Shown piece by piece: positions 15,618 to 28,819 of a stretch of 35,130 bases of DNA; within the stretch, counting starts at the first letter, position 1; the number at the start of each line of letters is the position of its first letter. This stretch comes from Clostridiales bacterium (GTDB lineage Bacteria; Bacillota; Clostridia; Mahellales; Mahellaceae): assembly GCA_030156435.1 (NCBI GenBank), contig JASGMM010000018.1, positions 1-35,130 of the forward strand. The letters run 5' to 3'. Position numbers and translations under genes: made by a program. The notes under the pieces are model-generated. The model did no database searches, was not told where the DNA came from, and saw only the letters and a list, made by a program, of their open reading frames with translations.

Positions 15618-15658
15618 AGTAATGAAGTTCAAAGGACTTAAATAAAATTAAATAATGA

Positions 15659-15754
15659 CCACTGGGGAGCCAGATTAGGCTGGCTGAGATAGGGGACCGA
15701 TGAATCCTCTGACCCATCGAACCTGATCCGGTTAATGCCGGCGTAGGAATGTGG
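15659..15754 (+). promoter_or_regulatory. TPP riboswitch (THI element)
   Basis: The conserved thi-box elements appear in order: ACTGGGGAGCC (from 15661), GGCTGAGA (CTGAGA at 15684-15689), GACCC (15711-15715), GAACCTGATC (CTGAT at 15723-15727) and GCCGGCGTAGGAATGTGG. The terminal CCAC (15659-15662) and GTGG (15751-15754) close helix P1. This aptamer binds thiamine pyrophosphate. A terminator hairpin follows, so TPP probably stops transcription before the genes at 15826 and 16136. Confidence 0.97.
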
Positions 15755-15767
15755 AATGCGCAAGTAT

Positions 15768-17462: not shown

Positions 17463-18686
17463 ATGAGCGTTTTACCAAAAGAAGTAGTACAGGAAATAGT
17501 TAAAGAGAACAATTTCCAGACGCCTCAGGAGATAATAGCCTTTATGAAAGAATCCTTCAGAGATGTCATTCAGGAAATGCTAGAGGCTGAGTTGGAAGTA
17601 GAACTTGGTTATGCCAAGGGAGAAAATCCACCAGCTGGTGCAGAAAATACTAGAAATGGATATGCTCCAAAAACTGTCCGCAGCGAGTTAGGTCCTATTG
17701 AACTAGATATCCCCAGGGATCGTAAAGGACAATTTGATCCTAAAATAGTCCCTAAATACTCCAGAGATGTTTCAGGTATTGAGGATAAGGTTATCTCACT
17801 GTATGCCAGGGGCATGAGTACTCGGGACATTCATGACCAAATTAAAGACCTGTACGGCGTAGAAATTTCTGCTGAGATGGTAAGTAAGATAACTGACCGT
17901 ATAACGCCTGAAATAAAAGAATGGCAGAACAGACCTCTCGAGAGAATATATCCTCTCATCTTCATGGATGCTATACATTACAAGGTGCGTGAAGATGGGC
18001 AGATCAATAAACGTGCTGCTTACGTCGTTATGGGAGTGAACATGGAGGGCAATAAGGATATTCTAGGCATATGGATCGGCGACAACGAATCCGCTAAATT
18101 CTGGCTTGGAATACTAAATGATCTCAAGAACAGAGGCGTGGAGGATGTTCTGGTATTCTGCGTTGATGGCCTGACAGGTATAAAAGAGGCTATTGAGGCT
18201 GCATACCCAAAAGCCGACATACAGAGATGCATAATACACCAATTGCGCAACTCTTTCAAGTATGTATCATATAAAGACATTAAAGAGTTTGCAGGGGACT
18301 TTAAGGGCGTATATACGGCAGCAAACGAAGATATTGCGCTGGATAAACTATGTGAACTTAAGGATAAGTGGGGTAAACAATATCCTTATGCATTCCGCAG
18401 TTGGGAAAACAATTGGGATATATTGAGCCCGTTTTTCAAATACCCGAATGAGGTGCGTAAGATTATGTATACCACTAACATCATCGAGGGATTGAACCGC
18501 CAGTTCAGGAAGGTTACCAAAAGTAAATCTGTATTTCCTTCCGACAGTTCCCTTGAGAAGATGTTATATCTGGCTTCTATGAACATTATGAAGAAATGGA
18601 CACAGAGATACCGTAATTGGGACCAAGTATTGAACCAATTATTAATAATGTATGGTGAGCGTCTAGAAAGCTACGTTATAAACTAA
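17463..18686 (+). CDS. IS256-family (mutator-type) transposase
   Basis: A 407-aa DDE transposase that catalyses copy-paste movement of its element through a circular intermediate. The catalytic triad is visible: D169 in IFMDAIHYKV, D235 in VFCVDGLTGIKEA, and E342 in TTNIIEGLNRQFRKVTKSK. CIIHQLRNSFKYV between D and E is the mutator-family C-x2-H signature. The N-terminal DNA-binding part contains ELEVELGYAKGE and TRNGYAPKTVRSELGPIELD, typical of IS256. Length equals the usual 390-410 aa, with no frameshift. ATG 17463 is preceded by AAAGGAG. Confidence 0.97.
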   Translation: MSVLPKEVVQEIVKENNFQTPQEIIAFMKESFRDVIQEMLEAELEVELGYAKGENPPAGAENTRNGYAPKTVRSELGPIELDIPRDRKGQFDPKIVPKYSRDVSGIEDKVISLYARGMSTRDIHDQIKDLYGVEISAEMVSKITDRITPEIKEWQNRPLERIYPLIFMDAIHYKVREDGQINKRAAYVVMGVNMEGNKDILGIWIGDNESAKFWLGILNDLKNRGVEDVLVFCVDGLTGIKEAIEAAYPKADIQRCIIHQLRNSFKYVSYKDIKEFAGDFKGVYTAANEDIALDKLCELKDKWGKQYPYAFRSWENNWDILSPFFKYPNEVRKIMYTTNIIEGLNRQFRKVTKSKSVFPSDSSLEKMLYLASMNIMKKWTQRYRNWDQVLNQLLIMYGERLESYVIN

Positions 18687-22734: not shown

Positions 22735-22764
22735 TTGACACACCCTTGTCCAATAGTGTATTAT
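22735..22764 (+). promoter_or_regulatory. Sigma-A promoter of the trp operon
   Basis: A consensus TTGACA (22735-22740) is followed after 18 bp by TATTAT (22759-22764). Transcription should start near 22771, just before the (G/U)AG repeats. Confidence 0.8.
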
Positions 22765-22776
22765 AGTAGCAAGATC

Positions 22777-22824
22777 GAGTTAGACGAGATGAGTTTAGAT
22801 GAGATGAGCCGAGAAGAGCATGAG
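22777..22824 (+). promoter_or_regulatory. Probable TRAP (MtrB) binding site: ten (G/U)AG triplets
   Basis: In the leader RNA, triplets GAG or UAG begin at 22777, 22781, 22786, 22791, 22796, 22801, 22806, 22811, 22816 and 22822. Spacers are 1, then 2 repeatedly, and finally 3 nt. An AAG at 22771 could serve as an eleventh. The B. subtilis trp leader has eleven such triplets, wrapped around the 11-subunit TRAP ring when tryptophan is high. The register, the position before trpE and the overlapping antiterminator all match that system. TRAP itself is not encoded in this window. Confidence 0.88.
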
Positions 22825-22869
22825 GAATGAATTTATGACTTTTCGGCCGGAATGATATTCCGGCCTTTT
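22808..22869 (+). terminator. trp leader antiterminator and attenuator terminator
   Basis: Terminator: GGCCGGAAT (22845-22853) pairs with ATTCCGGCC (22857-22865), loop GAT, followed by TTTT (22866-22869). Antiterminator: GCCGAGAAG (22808-22816), inside the (G/U)AG repeats, pairs with CTTTTCGGC (22839-22847) over 9 bp with one G-U. It shares 22845-22847 with the terminator arm, so only one can form. A bound TRAP would block the antiterminator and stop transcription before trpE. Confidence 0.88.
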
Positions 22870-22908
22870 GCATATCTTTTCGGCCTCTCTGGAAAGGAGA
22901 GAGCGTAT

Positions 22909-24381
22909 TTGTACTATCCAGACAGACGAGATTTTTGCGAGATGGCAGCTCAATACGATGTAGTGCCGGTATGGGCTGAATTCATGGCTGATACCATAAC
23001 GCCCATATCCATATTCTCACGCTTTGCTGACAGGCATGGCAGCTTTCTGCTCGAAAGCGTTGAAGGTGGAACGAAATGGGGACGCTATTCTTTCATAGGT
23101 ATCAATCCATCGGCATCATTCGAATTCAAAAATGGTTTGCTTAAAACTGATGCTGGTCAAGTGCTGTGCTCCGATCCCATAGCCTATATGAAGGATTGGA
23201 TGCACCGGCGCCGCTGTCCGCAGATAAAAGATTTACCGCGTTTTTCGGGTGGATGCGCTGGTTATTTTGCCTATGATATCGTAAGGGTGCTCGAACCATT
23301 GCCCGATATGCCTGAAGATGACCTTGAACTGCCCGATGCGCACTTCGTGTTGTGCGATGACCTCATAGTATATGACCATTTAAGACAAAGGATCATCATA
23401 ATAGTTAATGTTAATGTTGAACATGAAAGCGATGCCGCTTATGAGCGAGCCATAGGCAAAATAAAGTTAATGTACGACGAGATAATGTCGCAGCAAGCAT
23501 CTGCGGCCGTCGAACTGCATAAAAACACAGAGAATATATCGCCTATAAGCAATGTATCCCGACAGGAATATGTAGAATGGGTTGAAAGGGCCAAGCAATA
23601 TATACTCGACGGTGATATATTTCAAGTGGTGCTGTCACAGCGATACGAAACGGTGACTGATGCTCATCCATTCGACGTATACAGGGCGCTGAGGACGCTG
23701 AATCCATCACCATATATGTATTATTTTAATTTTGGATATTACCGGATAGCCGGTTCATCGCCGGAGTCGTTAGTCAGGGTGGAGGATGGTATTGTGGAGA
23801 CCTGTCCTATAGCAGGAACCCGCCCGCGCGGCGATACACCTGAACAGGATGTTGAACTGGAAAACGAGCTGCTCAATGACGAGAAGGAGAGAGCCGAACA
23901 TATCATGCTTGTGGATCTCGGCCGCAACGATATAGGCAAGGTGGCTGAATACGGCAGCGTGAGGGTTGAAAACATCATGCATATAGAAAAATATTCCCAC
24001 GTTATGCATCTGGTAACCAATGTTAAAGGCAGGCTCAAGGGTGATAATGACGCCTTCGATGCGCTGGCTGCGTGTTTGCCGGCGGGCACGGTCAGCGGTG
24101 CTCCAAAAGTTAGAGCCATGCAGATAATAGACGAAATGGAGCAGGTGCGCCGCGGGCCATATGCAGGAGCCATAGGGTATATAGGTTATAATGGTAATAT
24201 GGATGTGTGTATAACCATAAGGACGGCTATATTCGTAGGCGAGAAGGTATATGTTCAGGCAGGGGCAGGTATAGTGGCCGATTCGGTGCCTGAGCGCGAA
24301 TATGTGGAAACAGGTAATAAGGCCAAAGCCTTGCTACAGGCTATAGCATCAGTCGAGAAGAGAGGAGTTTTGATGAGATGA
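22909..24381 (+). CDS. trpE: Anthranilate synthase component I
   Basis: It converts chorismate, with ammonia from the glutamine-amidotransferase partner, to anthranilate, the first step of tryptophan synthesis. At 490 aa it shows the feedback-inhibition motif LLES at residues 47-50, and the C-terminal chorismate-binding signatures FQVVLSQRYE, IAGSSPESLVRV, CPIAGTRPRG and DLGRNDIGKV. PAGTVSGAPKVRAMQIIDE and YVQAGAGIVADSVPE follow. I chose TTG 22909 (7 nt after AAGGAGAG) because the product then starts like other TrpE proteins (YYPDRRDF). The SD can fold into CUCUC/GAGAG (22885-22889 and 22897-22901). trpG does not follow. The 3' end overlaps trpD by 4 bp. Confidence 0.97.
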   Translation: MYYPDRRDFCEMAAQYDVVPVWAEFMADTITPISIFSRFADRHGSFLLESVEGGTKWGRYSFIGINPSASFEFKNGLLKTDAGQVLCSDPIAYMKDWMHRRRCPQIKDLPRFSGGCAGYFAYDIVRVLEPLPDMPEDDLELPDAHFVLCDDLIVYDHLRQRIIIIVNVNVEHESDAAYERAIGKIKLMYDEIMSQQASAAVELHKNTENISPISNVSRQEYVEWVERAKQYILDGDIFQVVLSQRYETVTDAHPFDVYRALRTLNPSPYMYYFNFGYYRIAGSSPESLVRVEDGIVETCPIAGTRPRGDTPEQDVELENELLNDEKERAEHIMLVDLGRNDIGKVAEYGSVRVENIMHIEKYSHVMHLVTNVKGRLKGDNDAFDALAACLPAGTVSGAPKVRAMQIIDEMEQVRRGPYAGAIGYIGYNGNMDVCITIRTAIFVGEKVYVQAGAGIVADSVPEREYVETGNKAKALLQAIASVEKRGVLMR

Positions 24382-25415
24382 TAAAGGAAGCTATCGATAT
24401 GTTGGTGAAGGGACAGGACTTGTCGCTGGAACAAGCCATGCAATGCGTTGATATGATAATGAGCGGTCAAGCGACGCAGGCTCAGATAGGCGCGTTTTTA
24501 GCGGCTATGAGCCTCAAAGGCGAAACGGTGGATGAAATAACAGGTGCGGCGTTGGCCATGCGCAGCAAAGCCCAAAGGCTGGAACTTGATATGTATTGCG
24601 TGGACACATGCGGTACAGGCGGAGATAAGGCCGAGACGTTCAATATATCGACGGCTGCGGCTTTTGTTGCTGCAGCGGCCGGCGTGCCGGTGGCCAAACA
24701 CGGTAACCGTTCGGTATCCAGCCGATGCGGCAGCGCCGATGTGCTCGAAGCATTGGGTATAATAACCGATATGCCGCCGTCTTACACAGCCCAATGCATA
24801 AAAGAGGTGGGTATAGGTTTCATGTTCGCACCGGTATACCATACAGCTATGAAGCATGCTGCCGGCCCAAGAAAGGAACTCGGCATCAGAACTATATTCA
24901 ATATTTTAGGTCCTCTGACCAATCCAGCGGGTACCAAAGGGCAAGTGTTGGGGGTTTACGATGGGGCGATGGTGCGGCCGATAGCACAAGTGTTGGCTAA
25001 ACTCGGTACCGACAGGGCTATGGTGGTTCATGGTACAGACGGGTTGGATGAGATAACGGTAGCAGGAGAGACCATGGTTGCTGAAATAAATGGCGAGAGT
25101 ATCGCTGAATATACCATAGCGCCCGAGCACTTTGGACTGGAAAGAGCAACAAAGGAGGCATTAAAGGGCGGAGATCCACAGCACAATGCTGCTATAATAA
25201 GATCGGTATTCAATGGACAAAAAGGTGCTTACCGCGATGCCGTCATTTTAAATAGTGCCGCTGCAATATATGTTGGCAAAAAGGCGGAGACATTGGAAGA
25301 GGCCGTGAATTTAGCGCAAAAGCTCATCGATGACGGCAGTGCCGGCGCAAAGCTGAGCCAGCTTATTGAATTTTGTAACCGCTACGATAAACAACGGCAA
25401 CAAGCAATGGTATGA
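24378..25415 (+). CDS. trpD: Anthranilate phosphoribosyltransferase
   Basis: It transfers phosphoribose from PRPP to anthranilate, the second step of the pathway. The 345-aa length is standard. Signature segments are DTCGTGGDKAETFNISTAAA (PRPP-binding glycine loop), VAKHGNRSVSSRCGSADVLE, FMFAPVYHTAMKHAAGPRKE and GIRTIFNILGPLTNP. It is a stand-alone TrpD with no fused TrpG domain. The ATG overlaps the trpE stop by 4 bp and GAGGAG lies upstream, so translation is coupled. Confidence 0.97.
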   Translation: MIKEAIDMLVKGQDLSLEQAMQCVDMIMSGQATQAQIGAFLAAMSLKGETVDEITGAALAMRSKAQRLELDMYCVDTCGTGGDKAETFNISTAAAFVAAAAGVPVAKHGNRSVSSRCGSADVLEALGIITDMPPSYTAQCIKEVGIGFMFAPVYHTAMKHAAGPRKELGIRTIFNILGPLTNPAGTKGQVLGVYDGAMVRPIAQVLAKLGTDRAMVVHGTDGLDEITVAGETMVAEINGESIAEYTIAPEHFGLERATKEALKGGDPQHNAAIIRSVFNGQKGAYRDAVILNSAAAIYVGKKAETLEEAVNLAQKLIDDGSAGAKLSQLIEFCNRYDKQRQQAMV

Positions 25416-25423
25416 GGTGAATT

Positions 25424-26233
25424 ATGATATTAGAAGACATTGTGGCGGCCAAAGTTATACAATTGCAAATGGAAAAACAACATATATCGCTGGATGGCAT
25501 GAAATATATGCTCAAAAATATGCCGTCCTATAGGAGATACAGTTTCAAAGAAGCTTTAAAAAGGAAAGACGGTCTCTCCATAATAGCTGAGGTAAAAAAA
25601 GCCTCGCCATCCAAGGGTGTTATAGCTGCTGAATTCGATGCGCTGGAAACAGCAAAGGCGTACCAAGTAGGGGGTGCTGACGCCATATCAGTTTTGACCG
25701 AAAGGCGTTTCTTTGAAGGCAGTGATCAATATCTAAGCATGATAAAAAGCCAGGTTGCCATACCTGTACTGCGCAAGGATTTCATAATAGATGTATGGCA
25801 GATATATCAGTCGCGTCTTCTGGGTGCCGATGCTATATTGCTTATTTCAGCTATACTTGATAAAACGTTGCTCAAAAAGTTCTGCATTATAGCCGATATG
25901 CTGGGTATGGATTGCCTTGTTGAGGTTCATAATGAAATGGAGCTTGAAGCAGCGTTGGAGGCCGGGGCCTCTATAATAGGCATAAACAATCGCAACCTCA
26001 ATGATTTCAGTGTAGACCTTTCCACTACTCAAAGGCTTATGAAAGGTATACCGTCCGATAAAATAGTGGTAGCCGAAAGCGGCATACGAGATGCGGATGA
26101 TGTCCGTTATATGGCATCCCTGGGCGTTGATGCGTTGCTGATAGGGGAAACGCTTATGCGCTCCGATTGCCCGGGAAATACCATAAAGCAATTCAAAAAG
26201 GCCGCGGGAGGTTTAGTGGAAAAATATGGTTAA
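25424..26233 (+). CDS. trpC: Indole-3-glycerol phosphate synthase
   Basis: It closes the ring of carboxyphenylamino-deoxyribulose phosphate to indole-3-glycerol phosphate. This 269-aa TIM barrel carries IIAEVKKASPSKGVI (catalytic lysine and phosphate loop), VLRKDFIIDVWQIYQSR, LVEVHNEMELEAAL, IIGINNRNLNDFSVD and VVAESGIRDADDV. It is monofunctional; trpF is separate. ATG 25424 follows GAGGTGA, 8 bp after trpD. It overlaps trpF by 8 bp. Confidence 0.97.
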   Translation: MILEDIVAAKVIQLQMEKQHISLDGMKYMLKNMPSYRRYSFKEALKRKDGLSIIAEVKKASPSKGVIAAEFDALETAKAYQVGGADAISVLTERRFFEGSDQYLSMIKSQVAIPVLRKDFIIDVWQIYQSRLLGADAILLISAILDKTLLKKFCIIADMLGMDCLVEVHNEMELEAALEAGASIIGINNRNLNDFSVDLSTTQRLMKGIPSDKIVVAESGIRDADDVRYMASLGVDALLIGETLMRSDCPGNTIKQFKKAAGGLVEKYG

Positions 26234-26837
26234 AATAAAGATATGTGGCTTGACCGGCGAACGGGATACAACGGCGGTGAACTTATATAAGCCGGATTAT
26301 GTGGGCTTGATATTTGCCCCAGATAGCCGTAGATGTCTTACAATAAAGCGTGCGGCTGAGATTTGTGATATGCTGAATAGCGGTATAAAGCGCGTCGGCG
26401 TATTCGCCGATCAGAGCATGGGCTTTATAAATGAAGCCATACAAAGTTGCAAACTCGACGTTGTGCAGCTTCACGGCAGCGAAGCGCCGAATTTCTGCAG
26501 CAAATTTACAGGCGTAGAGGTGTGGAAAGCGATAAGAGTCAGGGGCCGCAATGACCTCAAAGGTTTGGATGCATGGCCTGTGGATGCTCTATTGCTGGAT
26601 GGGTCGATGCCGGGCAGCGGCCATGCCTTCGATTGGAATTTATTGCACGATATAAGGGTCAAGGGCCGTATAATACTGGCCGGCGGGCTAAATCCATATA
26701 ATGTAAAGATGGCTATAACCACAGCTCGACCCTATGGGGTAGACGTCAGCAGTGGCGTAGAGATCGACGGCTGCAAAGATGCGGATAAAATACGGGAGTT
26801 TATAGAAACAGTGAGGGGGATGGAGGATAATGAATAA
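26226..26837 (+). CDS. trpF: Phosphoribosylanthranilate isomerase
   Basis: It performs the Amadori rearrangement of phosphoribosylanthranilate. This 203-aa TIM barrel has the catalytic cysteine in VKIKICGLT, then [19 protein letters not shown], a catalytic aspartate in [25 protein letters not shown] and GVDVSSGVE. Both flanks overlap neighbours by exactly 8 bp (trpC and trpB), a pattern repeated at trpB/trpA. Confidence 0.97.
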
Positions 26838-28014
26838 AGGACGTTTTGGGCGTTTTGGCGGGCAATATGTGCCCGAGACGCTTATGAATGCGCTGGACGA
26901 ACTGGAGAGGGCATATAACGAAGCCATGGCCGACAATTCATTCATGGAAGAATTAGGTTATTATTTGGATAAATATGTAGGTAGGCCGACACCGTTGTAT
27001 TTTGCTAAGCGGCTTACAGAATACCTGGGTGGTGGCAGGGTATATCTTAAACGCGAAGACTTGAACCATACAGGCGCGCACAAGATAAACAATGCATTGG
27101 GCCAGGGGCTATTGGCCAAGCGCATGGGTAAGAAGAGACTGACGGCTGAAACCGGAGCCGGCCAGCATGGTGTGGCTGCAGCTACGGCGGCAGCGCTTTT
27201 GGGCATGGAGTGCGATGTGTTTATGGGGCGCGAGGATATGGAACGGCAGGCCCTGAACGTATTTCGCATGGAATTGCTAGGGGCAAGGGTGGTACCTGTA
27301 ACCTCCGGTACGGCTACATTAAAGGATGCTACCAATGAAGCCATACGCGATTGGGTATCCAATGTGGAGCATACGCATTATATCATAGGCTCTGTGGTAG
27401 GACCACATCCATATCCGACCATGGTACGCGATTTTCAGCGTATTATAGGCGATGAAACCAGGCAGCAGATAATACAAGCCGAAGAGCGTCTGCCCGATCA
27501 TATTATAGCCTGTGTAGGCGGCGGTAGCAATTCCATGGGTATATTTTATCCGTTTGTAAGCGATGATGCAGTCAAGTTATATGGTGTAGAAGCAGCCGGC
27601 CTGGGCCTCGATACCGATAAACATGCGGCTACTATAAGCAAGGGCAACGTGGGGGTGTTGCATGGCATGATGACGTACTTATTACAGGATAAATACGGTC
27701 AGATACAGCCAGTTTATTCTATATCCGCCGGCTTGGATTATCCTGGAGTGGGCCCGGAACATGCATACCTGCATGATATCGGACGTGTGCATTATACTTC
27801 TGTCACCGATAATGAAGCAATCGAGGCTTTCGAGATGTTGTCTCGCCTAGAGGGCATAATCCCTGCTCTGGAGAGCGCTCATGCGGTGGCGTATGCAGCG
27901 AAGCTGATACCTCAGATATCAAAGGACGATATCATAGTGATAAATATATCGGGCAGAGGGGATAAAGACGTACAATCCATTGCCAAATTAAAGGGGGTAA
28001 ACATCGATGAATAG
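26830..28014 (+). CDS. trpB: Tryptophan synthase beta chain
   Basis: This PLP enzyme joins indole and serine to give tryptophan. At 394 aa it is the TrpB1 type, with [16 protein letters not shown] at the start and the PLP lysine K85 in [24 protein letters not shown], the phosphate-binding [10 protein letters not shown], and a C-terminal [10 protein letters not shown] complete the family pattern. It pairs with TrpA in an alpha2beta2 complex. The gene overlaps trpF and trpA by 8 bp each. Confidence 0.98.
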
Positions 28015-28819
28015 GATAGATGAGCGGTTTGATGAGCTGAAACGGCATGGAAAAAAAGCGCTGATACCATTTATCACAGCTGGGGATCCTGATGTGGAGT
28101 ATACGATGAATACCGTCAGGGCTTTGGAATCAGCTGGCGCCGATATAATAGAGCTTGGCATACCGTATTCCGACCCATTGGCCGATGGGCCGGTGATCCA
28201 GGCATCATCGCAGCGCGCCTTAAAAGGGGGGATGAACCTAGACATAGCATTCGATATGGTGCAAAATCTTCGTATAAATACTTCCATTCCTTTAGTGTTT
28301 TTGATATACTATAATTGTATATATCAATATGGGTTGGAGAAATTCGTTGAACAATGCGGCAAGGCAGGCGTGGATGGCGCGATAGTACCCGATCTGCCTT
28401 ATGAAGAGCGACAGGTGTTGAAACCACTTTTGGATGATGCGCCAGTATACTTTATATCCATGGTGGCGCCGACGTCAGCGCAGCGCATAAAGGAAATAGC
28501 CTCGAGTGCCAAGGGCTTTTTGTACTGTGTATCATCGCTGGGGGTTACGGGCGAGAGACAGGCTTTCGACAGCAACATAGACGCCTTTATGGAAAAGGTA
28601 AATCTATATAGCGCGGTACCCACAGCCCTAGGCTTTGGCATATCCGAGCCGCAACACATGCGCCGCTTGGGTCATTTGGCCGACGGCCTCATAGTGGGTA
28701 GCGCATTGGTGCGGCGGATAGAACAAAAAGCCTCCGATCGAGATATATATGAATTTATGAGGGGATTGAGGCTGGCTCTCGATGAATGTATGGAACAGAC
28801 TATGGGAAATAATAGTTGA
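28007..28819 (+). CDS. trpA: Tryptophan synthase alpha chain
   Basis: It cleaves indole-3-glycerol phosphate to indole, which is channelled to TrpB. This 270-aa TIM barrel has catalytic E49 in [11 protein letters not shown] and D60 in [41 protein letters not shown] and [12 protein letters not shown] are also present. It is the last recognised biosynthetic gene of the operon; a membrane-protein gene starts inside its 3' end. Confidence 0.98.

Follow-up and report, generated by a model that had tools for sequence, protein, structure and literature searches.

A predicted TRAP-controlled attenuator of the Mahella trp operon and its place in a proposed wider clostridial TRAP regulon

The trpEDCFBA operon in the analyzed window (the whole 35,130-nucleotide stretch of contig JASGMM010000018.1 from a Clostridiales bacterium, probably a Mahella species) is preceded by a leader that we predict, with a probability of roughly 0.94, to be a transcription attenuator controlled by TRAP, which is encoded elsewhere in the genome. 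Attenuation of the B. subtilis TRAP type had been proposed in an earlier note made from the sequence alone, and this reading gained support from the anatomy of the leader (Table 1), the presence of mtrB, and conservation. Tryptophan-dependent binding, termination, and ring size are features that we infer by homology. The leader appears to be a TRAP attenuator of the ordinary kind that is well conserved, and TRAP has been little studied in this lineage; the interest of the finding centers on the proposed wider TRAP regulon of Clostridia, with iorAB-paaK as one of its branches.

Table 1. Features of the trp leader and operon (window coordinates)
Feature	Position	Strand	Basis or remark
Sigma-A type promoter, trp operon	22735-22764 (TTGACA 22735-22740, TATTAT 22759-22764)	+	sequence
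Predicted TRAP-binding site, ten GAG/UAG triplets	22777-22824	+	conserved core of nine, 22781-22824
Antiterminator 5′ arm, within last triplets	22808-22816	+	sequence, duplex folding
Antiterminator 3′ arm	22839-22847	+	sequence, duplex folding
Predicted intrinsic terminator, 9-bp stem, GAT loop, TTTT	22845-22869	+	sequence, folding, compensatory pair changes in G002
Possible hairpin over trpE ribosome-binding site (CTCTCT-GGAAAGG-AGAGAG)	22885-22903	+	sequence, conserved in genus
trpE, TTG start after AAGGAG, first gene of trpEDCFBA	22909-24381	+	NCBIfam TIGR00564, 584 bits
trpD, trpC, trpF, trpB, trpA	24378-28819	+	used as blastp references
Weak candidate TRAP site over trpD ribosome-binding site	24355-24377	+	GAG x4, one register position TTG

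Anatomy and conservation of the trp leader

The ten GAG/UAG triplets described between the promoter and trpE were confirmed at all their coordinates, with starts at 22777, 22781, 22786, 22791, 22796, 22801, 22806, 22811, 22816, and 22822 and spacers of 1, 2, 2, 2, 2, 2, 2, 2, and 3 nt, respectively. Transcription is predicted to start near 22771, where an AAG lies upstream of the first triplet. (G/U)AG chains spaced by 2-3 nt reached at most 5 triplets in 400 simulated windows, versus 9 in this leader (10 if the 1-nt spacer is admitted), and the analytic chance expectation of a 9-triplet chain in the window was 1.5e-7.

In the alignment of three Mahella genomes, the promoter was alignable in the congeners, except for the first 12 columns in congener G002, and the nine-triplet core with its 2-nt spacing was conserved in all three. 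The two congeners have GAA and GAT in place of the first triplet (22777), and the 3-nt last spacer was a one-base difference specific to the source genome; thus, nine is the conserved triplet count. TRAP targets usually carry 9-11 repeats (PMC4347634), and seven or more are bound stably by TRAP (PMC4027176). A variant ring or binding register, for which the short first spacer and the count of ten had been taken as possible signs, therefore gained no support: neither the extra triplet nor the 1-nt and 3-nt spacers are conserved, and a count of nine is normal for a TRAP target.

The 9-bp antiterminator and the overlapping 9-bp terminator with its T-run were both verified. The antiterminator arms, GCCGAGAAG and CTTTTCGGC, form 9 bp including one G-U, and the terminator stem-loop, GGCCGGAAT-GAT-ATTCCGGCC (22845-22865), is followed by TTTT (22866-22869). 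The terminator was conserved in the three Mahella genomes, and its stem GGCCGGAAU/AUUCCGGCC was replaced in G002 by GGCCGAAAC/GUUUCGGCC, that is, by two compensatory pair changes. The leader folded better than 200 of 200 shuffles (z=-4.1). The duplex of the triplet region with downstream sequence, including the terminator 5′ arm, reached -17.2 kcal/mol, and 2 of 200 shuffles were equally good.

The sequence CTTTTCGGCC, whose first copy is the antiterminator 3′ arm (22839), is repeated at 22876-22886 and is strictly conserved in the three Mahella genomes; in RNA read beyond the terminator, the second copy could base-pair with the last triplets. Duplexes of triplets with post-terminator sequence in other clostridial leaders scored little better than shuffles. 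Folding gave no support to an additional, translational control at the trpE ribosome-binding site: in equilibrium folding, the unpaired probability of the trpE Shine-Dalgarno sequence was 0.55 whether or not the triplets were masked as by TRAP. Elsewhere in the window, a TPP riboswitch (15653-15767, 77.9 bits) is followed downstream by a 99-aa ORF and one resembling AIR synthase, and a 407-aa ORF (17463-18686) resembles, by eye, an IS256-type transposase.

TRAP, the proposed mechanism, and alternative readings

A search for mtrB, which the earlier note had proposed as a check, revealed a single TRAP (mtrB, TrpBP) gene in the source genome (E=9.4e-38). Its product exceeds the cut-off of the NCBIfam equivalog (PRK13251) and has a 66-residue match to the B. 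subtilis and Geobacillus TRAP structures. The residues T29, T34, Q51, T53, and T56 (own numbering), which we take to be the Trp-pocket positions, are all present. In Mahella, mtrB lies between dnaE and pfkA (L001, G000:C78; neighbor names by eye), whereas the gene in B. subtilis adjoins folE. B. subtilis TRAP contacts each (G/U)AG via Glu36, Lys37, Lys56, and Arg58 (PMC4027176), and the aligned residues E40, K41, K60, and R62 (own numbering) are all found in the encoded protein. Anti-TRAP (rtpA), also sought in view of the earlier note, was not found in the source genome or in 48 other TRAP-encoding Clostridia. The search gave only weak short matches within long frames, mostly of ~380 aa, and one composite match above the cut-off was of the same kind. 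These matches were rejected as anti-TRAP, the long frames being DnaJ-like; such matches would be expected from DnaJ zinc motifs.

When tryptophan is plentiful, Trp-bound TRAP would wrap the nine conserved triplets as they emerge from RNA polymerase and hide 22808-22816, so that the antiterminator could not form and the terminator would halt transcription short of trpE. Under tryptophan shortage, TRAP would be empty, and the antiterminator would form first, claiming the initial three terminator bases and allowing the operon to be read. Counted against such an attenuator were the lack of a 5′ stem-loop, the weaker antiterminator in G002 (49 of 200 shuffles equally good), the unchanged folding of the trpE ribosome-binding site, and the lack of a strict 2-nt-spaced five-triplet array in about half of the TRAP-encoding Clostridia.

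The shortness of the U-run (4 U) and the weaker antiterminator in G002 would also fit an array that binds TRAP and affects only translation or RNA stability, the hairpin being a non-working attenuator. We consider this improbable, since the hairpin is conserved with compensation, lies directly 3′ of the array, and is overlapped by the antiterminator, and the trpE arrays of other Clostridia are mostly followed by a hairpin and U-run as well. Control by a tRNA-sensing Trp T-box, as in many Clostridia, might be expected in a genome with four T-boxes, and related genes in TRAP-less Clostridia are preceded by Trp T-boxes; however, an Rfam scan of the window gave no T-box or other match in the leader, which has only ~100 nt up to the terminator. 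The T-boxes of the source genome precede ilvB, aroF, ilvN-like, and thrS genes, with the specifiers GUA, UUC, CUC, and ACC, not UGG (those of L004 and L005 read by eye). The anatomy of the leader thus refutes a Trp T-box, and we give it next to no weight. Ribosome-mediated attenuation via a Trp-rich leader peptide has an equally negligible probability and is refuted by the lack of UGG codons, given that the 13-codon ORF overlapping the triplets (ATG near 22790, MSLDEMSREEHEE) has no Trp codon and 22771-22870 contains no TGG; the conserved triplet register and the mtrB gene also speak against this mechanism.

The predicted TRAP attenuator resembles that of B. subtilis trpEDCFBA in the order of promoter, (G/U)AG array with 2-3 nt spacers, antiterminator, overlapping terminator, and trpEDCFBA, in the use of the last triplets by the antiterminator, in a TRAP with the same binding residues, and in a trpG that lies apart from the operon and carries triplets at the start. 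It differs in having nine conserved triplets (ten in the source genome) instead of 11 and an array ~6 nt from the predicted start, too close to leave a 5′ stem-loop. The leader is also shorter (~140 nt versus 203 nt in B. subtilis; PMC3913778), and the antiterminator and terminator overlap by 3 nt (22845-22847) rather than 4 nt (+108 to +111 in B. subtilis; PMC4027176). Further differences from B. subtilis are the undetected anti-TRAP, the triplets at trpB2 and paaK, and the location of mtrB. The TRAP of Bacillus halodurans, a 12-mer with 19 NAG triplets (PMC3184956), belongs to the same protein family and mechanism; Mahella has fewer, not more, triplets.

Predicted TRAP targets in Mahella and other Clostridia

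In Mahella, conserved arrays were also found at three further sites, through which the same TRAP would repress translation: six triplets lie at the trpG start, five upstream of trpB2, and nine across the iorB stop and paaK start. In G002, an array precedes a gene for a TrpX-like ABC binding protein. The weak candidate over the trpD ribosome-binding site was kept in 3/3 Mahella genomes, but lies within the end of the trpE coding region; in three other Clostridia, trpD has clear TRAP-type arrays upstream. One-mismatch arrays in G000:C37 and G001:2443086 were rejected as chance, as they lie within threonine-synthase-like and permease-like coding frames.

TRAP was encoded in 89 of 391 sampled genomes of class Clostridia, about a quarter, so the surprise implied in the earlier note at a TRAP leader in this class was unsupported; the triplet number and spacing, which it had suggested comparing in relatives, were conserved both in Mahella and across TRAP-encoding Clostridia. 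The strict five-triplet pattern (KAGNNx5, strict 2-nt spacing) occurred in 26 of 48 TRAP-encoding genomes, sampled as one per genus, versus 1 of 48 TRAP-less Clostridia (Fisher p=5e-9). Tryptophan genes followed 30 of the 37 fetched arrays, namely trpE (11), trpD (3), trpB (4), trpB2 (3), genes for TrpP-family transporters (8), and a gene for a TrpX-like binding protein (1). For 15 of 30 trpE leaders from TRAP-encoding genomes, none of 200 simulations equalled the array. Strong evidence from sequence comparison thus points to the clostridial arrays as TRAP sites.

Two five-triplet arrays ~50-60 nt apart precede a TrpP-family transporter gene in L075, L090, and L094, the second lying just upstream of the transporter start. 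A seven-triplet array in L069 precedes a methyltransferase-like gene and a five-triplet array in L077 an amidohydrolase gene; both genes are possible new TRAP targets. Our search, which covered the open literature, turned up no work on clostridial TRAP targets.

The proposed iorAB-paaK branch

The iorA-iorB-paaK operon (L102, G001:C1:2785000-2793000; L103, G000:C77:1-6000) is the least expected of the predicted targets. Its nine triplets span the iorB stop and paaK start; they are conserved across the genus and have counterparts in other TRAP-encoding genera. The genes encode indolepyruvate:ferredoxin oxidoreductase (iorAB) and a phenylacetate-CoA-ligase-like protein (paaK), often accompanied by a TrpP-like ECF transporter; some species also have trpB2 alongside, which adjoins ior/paaK genes in L307 and L312. 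In G178 and G023 (two genera of one family) and G046 (another family), an array, hairpin, and U-run precede an operon encoding a TrpP-like membrane protein, two ABC ATPases, a CbiQ-type transmembrane protein, IorA, IorB, and PaaK. The TrpP-like protein, the ATPases, and the CbiQ-type protein together are an ECF transporter (Pfam, G178 only). Arrays were located immediately upstream of the paaK start or across it in Mahella, L290, L292, L297, and L252. Among genomes with paaK orthologues, arrays of at least four triplets occurred in the ior/paaK operon of 8 of 23 TRAP-encoding versus 0 of 20 TRAP-less genomes (p=0.004, an optimistic value, since some genomes share a genus and are not independent).

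Three TRAP-less loci carry T-boxes instead, directly before paaK in L302 (7770-8028) and L304 (7718-7970) and before iorA in L315 (4944-5190, minus strand). The specifier was apparently UGG (Trp) in all three according to the Rfam alignment, for which the source genome's thrS T-box (ACC) served as a control; that of L302 was read from the sequence. The Trp T-box is an unrelated RNA that, unlike the TRAP leader, senses uncharged tRNA-Trp without a protein, and with it iorA and paaK would likewise be switched by the tryptophan supply. Two unrelated regulators that shut down their genes at high tryptophan thus converge on iorAB-paaK, and the Trp T-boxes at these three operons suggest that tryptophan represses the genes and that their role is anabolic.

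Methanogens have a second route to aromatic amino acids that starts from aryl acids (Porat et al., taken up together with indolepyruvate oxidoreductase in PMC4162585). The regulatory logic favors the same anabolic use of iorAB-paaK in Clostridia, from which we infer the direction of the enzymes; the route would lead from arylacetate via aryl-acetyl-CoA and arylpyruvate to the aromatic amino acid. The clostridial TRAP regulon is probably, though with considerable reservation, wider than that of Bacillus, free of anti-TRAP, and inclusive of an anabolic iorAB-paaK operon that is shut by plentiful tryptophan via TRAP or, in TRAP-less relatives, via a Trp T-box.

TRAP has been studied almost only in Bacillus; judging from the present data, it is also a widespread regulator of tryptophan genes in Clostridia, where its targets can be predicted and no anti-TRAP was detected. 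The iorAB-paaK genes are usually read as amino-acid fermentation genes, whereas shut-off by tryptophan would point to biosynthesis or salvage; this link is a direct, testable prediction on the direction of these enzymes in anaerobes.
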